Below are positions 5,799 through 62,354 of a stretch of DNA of 64,000 nt, piece after piece. The position numbers were made by a program, and so were the translations under genes. Numbering within the stretch: position 1 is the stretch's first letter; the number at the start of each line of letters is the position of its first letter. Location: assembly GCA_020696345.1 (NCBI GenBank), contig JAEHCK010000007.1:1-64000 (forward strand), read 5' to 3'. This stretch comes from Thermoplasmata archaeon. Its GTDB lineage: Archaea > Thermoplasmatota > Penumbrarchaeia > JAEHCK01. A model generated the notes under the pieces. That model was not told the origin of the DNA. It saw only the letters and a list, made by a program, of their open reading frames with translations, and did not search any database.

Positions 5799-6110
5799 AT
5801 CCAAAGTATGAAATACGAATCTCTAAACAAATCCGAAATAAGAATGACCCAAACTAGTTTTTCCTGCTGATGTTTGGTATTTAGTATTTGTTTAGGGGGT
5901 TGGAATTACATATTAATTGTTACTTAATAAAAGGAATTCCAAGCTTCAAGAAAAATAGTGCAAACTCAATAATAAATCCTATTTTTATGTGAAATTAGAA
6001 CTTCGGATTTAGAATTTTCTTTCATTAATTTTTCTTTTTAAAGATGAAATCGACTGGTAGCATTGAAATTTCAATGCGTCATAAAAAACTAATACTTTTT
6101 TTCCAAGGCA

Positions 6111-10825: not shown

Positions 10826-10899
10826 GGGCCGGTAGATCAGCTTGGAAGATCGCCTGCTTTGCAAGCAGGAGGCCACGGGTTCAAATCCCGTCCGGTCCA
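10826..10899 (+). tRNA. tRNA-Ala (TGC)
   Basis: Acceptor GGGCCGG/CCGGTCC, anticodon arm CCTGC TTTGCAA GCAGG, T-loop TTCAAAT. Confidence 0.93.
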
Positions 10900-11238
10900 T
10901 AATAATTTTATTATCATGTTTTTATTGATATATTTTGGGATTTGAACCCTAAATAAAATACAATAATTGATGTTGAGACCCTATTTTATTTTGAGCTTGG
11001 AATTCTCATTATTAATCATTGATATAAACCAGAATTCCAACCACCACAGGAAAAATTCCGTAATAAAAAACAGATGTTATTAGGAATTTATAGCTCAGAA
11101 CAAAATAGGCCATGATCAAATACTTATCCTATTTTGTTCATTCAAGTAAAAGAATTAAAATACCAAATATGTTTTAAGGTAAAAAACCATAAGTAATTGT
11201 TGTAATCAGCAATACTAACAAATCAACCGAGACGAAAG

Positions 11239-21937: not shown

Positions 21938-22282
21938 CTCAGCGATTTTTTTTTAATGAGTTATTTATTAGTTATTTATGGGTGTTAAATTCCAAGCTGT
22001 GGAAAAATCGAAGAGTTTTCCAGAGCAAAATGATTTCCTTTAAAAATCATCTAGAGCTAAAAATTCTTTTATAGGGAATATTATAAAAAATAGAATTTTT
22101 ACCTCGAGTTAATTTGCTGTGGCAAATTAGCCTAGTTCCAAGCACCAAGGTCCAAATAAGTTCCAAATTCCAAGTTCCAATAACCAAAACGGATTTGGAG
22201 TTGGAAAGAGGAAAGAGTAGTTATGAAAGAGGGTTGATAATTGGTTATTGTGATTTGTTTGTAATTTGTAATTTTCAAAGAT

Positions 22283-33530: not shown

Positions 33531-33604
33531 GCCACTGTGGCTTAGCCTGGTATAGCGGCTGATTCGTAATCAGCAGGTCGAGGGTTCGAATCCCTCCGGT
33601 GGCT
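33531..33604 (+). tRNA. tRNA-Thr (CGT)
   Basis: Acceptor GCCACTG/CGGTGGC, anticodon arm GCTGA TTCGTAA TCAGC, T-arm GAGGG TTCGAAT CCCTC. Confidence 0.95.
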
Positions 33605-42535: not shown

Positions 42536-42799
42536 ATTCTAAACAAGCAAAAAAAATATTGATTTTTCAAATATTCTTTTTTTGCTATAACTTAGAATTC
42601 CTTTAATCAATTATTAAACCAAACGGAATTCTAACCCCAAATCCGAAATTCCAAATAATAATTTCACAAACCTTAATCTTGTTTGAAATTTAGATACTAG
42701 TTTTTGTTTAGAATTTAGGGTTTAGGATTTAGAGTTTTAAAATAATAACTGGTTAAATCATCATTTTCACATTATCCTACGAAAATTTGGAGATGAACC
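42512..42799. repeat. Dispersed intergenic element, copy 1
   Basis: Ends aaaatccgaagttcgaatatctaaattctaaacaa and gatttagagttttaaaataat..aactggttaaatcatcattttcacattatcctacgaaaatttggagatgaacc; second copy at 62355-62615. Confidence 0.85.
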
Positions 42800-61878: not shown

Positions 61879-62000
61879 GCCGTTGTAGCTTAGTTGGTGG
61901 AGTACTCGGCTGTTATAATGATCTCATTTTTCTCGTAAAGATCTTCAAATGAGACATTTTGGATACCGAGCGGTCGCCGGTTCGAATCCGGCCAACGGCG
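61879..62000 (+). tRNA. tRNA-Asn (GTT) with a 49-nt intron (about 61916-61964) at position 37/38
   Basis: Exons GCCGTTGTAGCTTAGTTGGTGGAGTACTCGGCTGTTA / ACCGAGCGGTCGCCGGTTCGAATCCGGCCAACGGCG; intron hairpin tctcattt/aaatgaga. Confidence 0.93.
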
Positions 62001-62029: not shown

Positions 62030-62103
62030 GGGCCCGTAGCTTAGTCTGGTGGAGCGTCTGGCTCATAACCAGATGGTCGTCGGTTCAAATCCGGCCGGGC
62101 CCA
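62030..62103 (+). tRNA. tRNA with CAT anticodon (Met, or Ile2 after modification)
   Basis: Acceptor GGGCCCG/CGGGCCC, anticodon arm TCTGG CTCATAA CCAGA, T-loop TTCAAAT. Confidence 0.92.
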
Positions 62104-62128
62104 CTCTACTTATTTAATAATGATTTTC

Positions 62129-62260
62129 GTGAGCCCGGCCTTGATATCGATCAGTGTTCAAACTTCGCCAATTACCGTCTTTTAATAATTTATTGATTTA
62201 ACGGTAATTGGCTCGCATTTGAAATTCCTGGTGGAATTTCAAAAGTCCGGCCGAGCCCAC
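62129..62260 (+). other. Hairpin-rich cloverleaf-like element whose ends copy the tRNA 3' terminus
   Basis: Outer stem GTGAGCCCGGCC / GGCCGAGCCCAC (10/12), inner hairpins TGAT/ATCA, GCCAATTACCGT/ACGGTAATTGGC and TTTGAAATTCC/GGAATTTCAAA. Confidence 0.7.
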
Positions 62261-62354
62261 TTGGTTTATATTATAATGATTTATGCCTCTTCTCCAATTT
62301 TTCACACAGTTATTGGATTATGGATAGAGAATATATCCTAAATCCAAATAATAT

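Follow-up and report, generated by a model that had tools for sequence, protein, structure and literature searches.

Near the right end of the window, by which we mean the whole 64,000-nt stretch of contig C162 analysed here, a tRNA-Met(CAT) gene is followed by a compact folded element built partly from copies of the tRNA's own 3' end (Table 1). The window contains an archaeal 16S sequence and belongs to a 5.0 Mb assembly of 272 contigs that is 91% complete. The tRNA-Met tail, from T55 to the discriminator, spans 62085-62103. The initial annotation had placed the end of the tRNA at 62104, and the tail sequence GGCCGGGCCCAC is indeed found at 62093-62104, but this last position is the C that follows the discriminator. 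Directly upstream lies an intron-bearing tRNA (61879-62000) that is found by Rfam and missed by ARAGORN, probably a tRNA-Asn with the anticodon GTT.

Behind a T-rich spacer stands an inverse copy of the tRNA 3' end, here called X', and behind a set of hairpins a direct copy that includes the 12-nt sequence GGCCGAGCCCAC at 62249-62260; each differs from the tRNA by one G-to-A change, as the initial annotation had read them. In 100 shuffles of the 350-nt flank, neither the inverse copy (0/100) nor the direct copy (0/100) was matched, and tRNA-Met ranks first among 44 tRNAs as the source of X'. Of the three hairpins originally described, those with 12-bp and 11-bp stems are present and perfectly paired, while the small arm, given as 4 bp, folds with 5 bp. 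The proposed outer 12-bp stem enclosing these arms is likewise present, although in the Met copy it contains two A.C mismatches (62132/62257 and 62135/62254). The 132-nt element folds with a minimum free energy of -51 kcal/mol (z = -7.4), equalled by 0 of 200 shuffles. The likeness between the flank of the direct copy and that of the tRNA, also part of the original description, is real, because a direct repeat (62087-62126 and 62243-62282) extends over 40 nt at 80% identity, further than had been noted. D and anticodon arms are absent from the core; ARAGORN and Rfam detect the upstream tRNA only, and a search of the element against Rfam 15 gave nothing above the gathering score.

Table 1. Features of the units and their host tRNAs, in window coordinates except for the last line. 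X', inverse copy of the tRNA 3' end; R1, covariance model of family 2; D1, the 40-nt direct repeat.
Feature	Position	Strand	Remarks
tRNA-Ala(TGC), family-2 host	10826..10899	+	
Family-2 unit: inverted T-arm (10937-10949), hairpin 1, hairpin 2, partial T-stem copy	10937..11057	+	
Second family-2 core, opposite direction	11033..11150	-	R1 E 6.9e-9
tRNA-Thr(CGT), followed by family-3 repeat	33531..33604	+	
Family-3 repeat, right end abutting a damaged tRNA-Thr tail copy at the T-loop	33687..33785	+	
tRNA-Met(CAT), host gene	62030..62103	+	ARAGORN and Rfam
T-rich spacer	62104..62128	+	1/26 bases different from the spacer behind tRNA-Pro on another contig
X', GTGAGCCCGGCC	62129..62140	+	
Small hairpin arm, 5 bp	62141..62154	+	Folding
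Hairpin 1, perfect 12-bp stem (62167-62178/62201-62212)	62167..62212	+	
Hairpin 2, perfect 11-bp stem (62218-62228/62233-62243)	62218..62243	+	
Direct copy of tRNA tail, pairs with X' in the outer stem	62246..62260	+	
Flank similar to the proximal spacer	62261..62282	+	Within D1
Family-3 example on another contig	C225:26078-26173		

The Met element recurs in the genome. A search with it recovered four further copies, a tandem pair behind an intron-bearing tRNA-Pro on contig C131, a gene overlooked by both ARAGORN and Rfam, and a tandem pair behind tRNA-Val(CAC) on C82. The tails follow the local tRNA, with GGCCGGGCCCAC at Met replaced by GGGTGGGCCCAC at Pro and GGCTGGGCCCAC at Val, and the inverse ends change along with their own tRNA at all three loci. 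Stems covary across the five copies, and hairpin 1 shows compensatory changes in the Val copies. The outer stem is intact in the distal Pro and Val copies. The near identity of the Met and Pro spacers (Table 1) suggests that the spacer is probably part of the unit, where its sequence would probably also serve as the terminator of the tRNA.

Inspection of other tRNA 3' flanks, which the initial annotation had proposed, revealed that 12 of the 44 archaeal tRNA loci of the genome carry a unit. The initial annotation had named a lack of recurrence at other tRNAs as grounds for refutation, and the outcome is the opposite. When 43 archaeal tRNA flanks were scanned over at most 75 nt for the last 27 bases of the tRNA in inverted form, 11 loci gave clear matches; the final set adds two loci to these and leaves out the weaker case C267. 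At 12/12 loci the best source of X' among the 44 tRNAs is the host itself, alone or tied, and random reassignment of hosts in the T-arm set reached the observed match in 41 of 20,000 trials. At locus C196b, the inverted copy matches even the unusual T-loop TTCAAACC. Perfect 13-nt direct tail copies also occur 150-320 nt downstream of several other tRNAs. In five contigs (C79, C171, C71, C105 and C119) tRNA genes are densely clustered and encode their CCA, as the archaeal tRNAs of the assembly do not; these are probably phage contigs binned with the genome.

At nine of the 12 loci, the inverted T-arm (GGGATTYGAACCC or close to it) leads into a second body, family 2. Its AT-rich hairpin is followed by GAGCT and by another hairpin containing GAATTCC..GGAATTC; after CCCC comes a copy of either the T-arm or the tail. 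The unit behind tRNA-Ala(TGC) in the window scores 105 bits with the family-2 covariance model R1, of whose training set it forms part. Hairpin 2 covaries in 14 sequences: columns 66-108 hold seven A-U and seven U-A pairs, columns 67-107 ten A-U and four G-C, and columns 68-106 eight G-C and six A-U, with pairing never broken. Seen by eye in alignment A3, a C.C mismatch is conserved at the base of hairpin 2 (columns 60-64 and 109-114), and another mismatch there appears side-swapped, from A.C to C.A, beside a change from G-C to C-G (C68a, C88a); such mismatches recall protein-read hairpins.

Family-2 cores are also dispersed. R1 finds at least 59 places in the genome, and a strict hairpin 2 pattern has 94 matches here and 0 in 296 other genomes of the phylum, with none for the reversed control; these copy counts are lower bounds. 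More cores lie in the window away from tRNAs, at 5890-6004 (-), 22013-22108 (+) and 42550-42638 (+). We rejected the idea that every family-2 core has flank-complementary ends: among copies away from tRNAs, only 2 of 44 exceed the 99% permutation level, and the T-arm bracket thus belongs to the tRNA loci. A group II intron domain (RF00029) was observed at L107:1441-1516 (C128, minus strand) within the second tRNA-Ala unit, which is truncated where the contig ends.

A third repeat, family 3, has about 50 matches in the genome, also behind many tRNAs. It reads GAACGAGCAGGCTTACCCCGAGTTTTGGGATGACC...AAAAAGTTTCCG, and its right end is often joined to TTCRA. At six loci (C68, C257, C196, C217, C162 and C225) this end abuts the T-loop of a tail copy, GTTTCCG running directly into TTC..., and C145 holds a damaged form of the same junction. 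At locus L189 (C222, about 14.2 kb, minus strand) the tRNA tail GAGTTCGAATCCCCATGGGCCCG stands behind a family-3 repeat, and no tRNA gene was detected in the fetched stretch.

The same layout is found in related archaea. A blastn search of the relatives gave no useful sequence match, because the cores are not conserved, but a search for the layout itself did reveal their units. The pattern of a T-arm, 40-68 nt and an inverted T-arm occurs eight times in this genome; of the 13 other genomes of the class, 10 have it, with as many as 11 occurrences in one genome; outside the class it appears in 9 of 233 genomes, once or twice in each, and the control gave 0 everywhere. A single bacterial match in the pattern scan of genome contigs was judged to be due to chance. 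Six out-of-class loci were inspected, and three of them (L205-L207) are in fact tail-to-tail tRNA pairs. The other three, L203, L204 and L208 (genomes G018, G029 and G038), are possible units behind tRNA-Val, tRNA-Pro and tRNA-Glu (E 0.0008-0.005), and from these weak scores the family may extend outside the class.

In the 40 class loci fetched for comparison, the tRNA is followed by a T-rich spacer and the inverted T-arm, then by hairpins 1 and 2 and finally by a tail copy that starts with TCRAATCC; many have a small ACC..GGT arm after the inverted T-arm. Tandem units occur at some of them, and units behind different tRNAs of one genome resemble each other; spread within genomes, as against isotype-specific inheritance, is only suggestive (p = 0.07). 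The search pattern fixes most T-arm bases but leaves both T-loop purines free, so that only the free positions and the flanks count as evidence of matching. At these positions X' carries the T-loop purine of its host in 38 of 39 loci of the relatives (19 hosts with A, 20 with G), 0 of 20,000 permutations gave as good a summed match between X' and host, and the match fades past the T-arm. Among the 43 loci where the left edge of the tail copy could be measured, it falls at T55 (19 nt from the end of the tRNA) in 19 and at a distance of 18-21 nt in 31, while at some loci of our genome, such as C84 and C196b, the direct copy begins a few bases further left, in the T-stem. Every unit seen has (G)TTCRAAT at its junction.

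Structure is retained as these sequences diverge. In two families of the relatives, f4 (11 units) and f3 (12 units), 95.7% and 93.1% of cells pair, and both sides change in 12 of 32 and 18 of 28 pairs, respectively; with partners shifted by one base as a control, pairing falls to 45-61%. A covariance model built from f4 alone, R2, matches units of the f3 genomes (E down to 8e-17) and family 2 here (E 7e-10), and its counterpart from f3, R3, matches f4 units (E to 1e-13) and family 2 here (E 3e-9). For family 2, most of the best matches to both models fall on the opposite strand from the tRNA. Family 2 thus seems to be oriented in reverse, which the symmetric ends of a unit could permit. The Met element has no convincing match to R2 or R3, its Pro homologue reaching only E 1.4. 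Layout and position do agree, and by these the Met type may be placed in the wider family.

Among the readings offered by the initial annotation, that of a mobile element using tRNA 3' ends gained most: units recur at those 12 of 44 loci and at about 40 in relatives, and tandem arrays, the sharp T-loop junction and the dispersed family-2 core point the same way. With moderate confidence we propose that the units, about 90-135 nt in size, are a family of folded, gene-less mobile elements that integrate at tRNA genes with a junction in the T-loop. They are too small for a gene and encode no integrase, and are predicted to be non-autonomous and moved in trans by a putative recombinase. This enzyme, most likely an integrase of the tyrosine-recombinase type, would recognise the dyad-symmetric T-arm and exchange strands inside the T-loop, so that the displaced tail, from T55 to the discriminator, would mark the far side of the inserted unit. 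The gene would stay intact because a matching tail and terminator sit on the tRNA side. Tandem arrays could arise from repeated insertion or from recombination between tails, and X' and the tail would pair as the outer stem of the folded unit, probably as a second binding site of the enzyme.

Archaeal tyrosine recombinases are known to use the T stem-loop as their attB (PMC8371274). The elements that these move share with our units the T-arm target and a tRNA that stays whole at one end, with its displaced tail as a direct repeat at the other (PMC8371274); the units differ from them in being short (about 150 bp) and gene-less, in the inverted T-arm inside a folded body, in the many tRNAs occupied per genome and in the tandem arrays. 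Four tyrosine-recombinase genes (PF00589) score above the cut-off in the one genome searched, none of them at a unit; tyrosine recombinases lie for example at C126:7773 and C150:5883. Neither an excision product nor an empty allele nor an autonomous partner could be found in the fragmented assemblies on whose sequence the whole analysis is based. Classical integrase cut-and-paste alone leaves unexplained how units with one and the same body came to occupy tRNAs whose tails differ. X' may be kept matched to its own tRNA by a need for identity in the recombination overlap; alternatively, the match may reflect correction by template switching, a process that homogenises the arms of close inverted repeats (PMC8794818, PMC8604942).

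A more far-reaching account, which we regard as unlikely, is that T-loops serve as docking points for folded cassettes that carry no genes and are moved in hairpin form by a dedicated recombinase, in a tRNA-docked analogue of integrons or an insertion system guided by base pairing. As part of that same account, each cassette would bring a replacement tail and terminator, and the T-arm complement would be its address.

We consider it rather improbable that the units are an integron-like system of folded cassettes, with the T-loop as an attI-like docking site, the segment from X' to the tail as an attC-like site that recombines in single-stranded, hairpin-folded form, and a spare tRNA tail and terminator in every cassette. 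In their style of conservation the units do stand nearest to attC sites: like integron attC/CALIN arrays (PMC9668308), they retain structure while sequence drifts, have complementary outer core sites, form tandem arrays and keep a single fixed junction point, and their length is 90-135 nt; integrons have moreover been reported from archaeal MAGs (PMC9668308). The units differ, however, in using a tRNA as docking site and in folding into two or three arms and not one long imperfect hairpin, and neither an IntI-like gene beside them nor cassette or cargo genes were seen. The core of integron attC sites is GTTRRRY at R', with its complement at R''; the T-loop GTTCRAA does not fit this core.

The second option of the initial annotation, a tRNA-mimic RNA, strikes us as doubtful. 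Under such a reading, the units would be structured RNAs transcribed with or after the tRNA, acting as mimics of the tRNA tail or in tRNA processing, for example by competing for the T-arm or RNase Z, and multiplied through tandem amplification. The strong covariation, with a shape conserved by compensatory changes, would be expected of such an RNA, as would the constant place behind tRNAs, the mostly constant layout and an outer stem that mimics part of the acceptor and T-arm. Yet a T-rich stretch, a likely terminator, separates tRNA and unit, the same fold is equally possible as DNA, in family 2 here it is mostly the opposite strand that fits the models of the relatives, and copies of the family-2 core lie scattered at a distance from tRNAs.

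Movement by hairpin-acting Y1 transposases, as for IS200/IS605 or REP type elements, appears very unlikely. The genome has 14 above-cut-off Y1_Tnp matches and the units are hairpin-rich and gene-less, but the fetched flanks of the Y1 genes contain no R1 match, and the tail copies would be left unexplained; we know of no Y1 insertion that duplicates its target. Decay of a tandem tRNA, the remaining suggestion of the initial annotation, can be dismissed, and so can a simple tandem duplication that took in the tRNA 3' region, despite the direct repeat of the tRNA 3' end and flank. The plan is shared, one core recurs behind tRNA-Met, tRNA-Pro and tRNA-Val, D and anticodon arms are missing, hairpins covary in an insert common to unrelated tRNAs, copying is limited to the tail from the T-loop onward, and X' matches the T-loop purine of its host in the relatives.

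In layout, the units are nearest to the tyrT repeats of E. coli (RtT RNA), which are about 180 bp long, lie behind a tRNA at one locus and each carry a copy of the tRNA 3' end; to our knowledge these have no inverted T-arm or covarying arms, and the present units lack an Rfam match. Dictyostelium tRNA-targeted retroelements also insert near tRNA genes, where the T-arm box is read, but are kilobases in size, stay at a distance and are not known to duplicate the tail. Archaeal MITEs are similarly short, non-autonomous and palindromic, and the dispersed family-2 core resembles them, but the ends of the units match the individual target tRNA. In target choice, the nearest systems are the T-arm integrases and casposons. 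The casposase of Aciduliprofundum boonei recognises the T-loop motif TCAAATC at a tRNA 3' end and produces a target duplication of 14-15 bp downstream of the T-loop (PMC6614799), whereas the duplication at our units includes the T-loop. A casposon origin was rejected, as the genome has no Cas1 (PF01867) match, whereas the control was positive in 9 genomes. The units lack defining features of casposons and of attC sites, and we therefore assign them to neither. They would belong among the tRNA-targeted non-autonomous mobile elements, and the family itself looks undescribed, no account of such units having been found in the open-access full-text papers searched.

If the favoured explanation holds, tRNA genes across a whole archaeal class would have been colonised by units of less than 200 nt that read the universal T-loop, a strategy by which many tRNAs would be targeted and the gene left intact. 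How one enzyme serves many tRNAs is an open question for archaeal integrases, where target switching has been considered (PMC8371274), and the units would make it testable for a site-specific enzyme by providing natural substrates of a T-loop recombinase. A tRNA and the inverted copy close to it would also make a clean natural example of concerted evolution. For genome annotation, the units would be a warning that fragments of tRNA tails behind archaeal tRNAs are not necessarily the remnants of deleted viruses.
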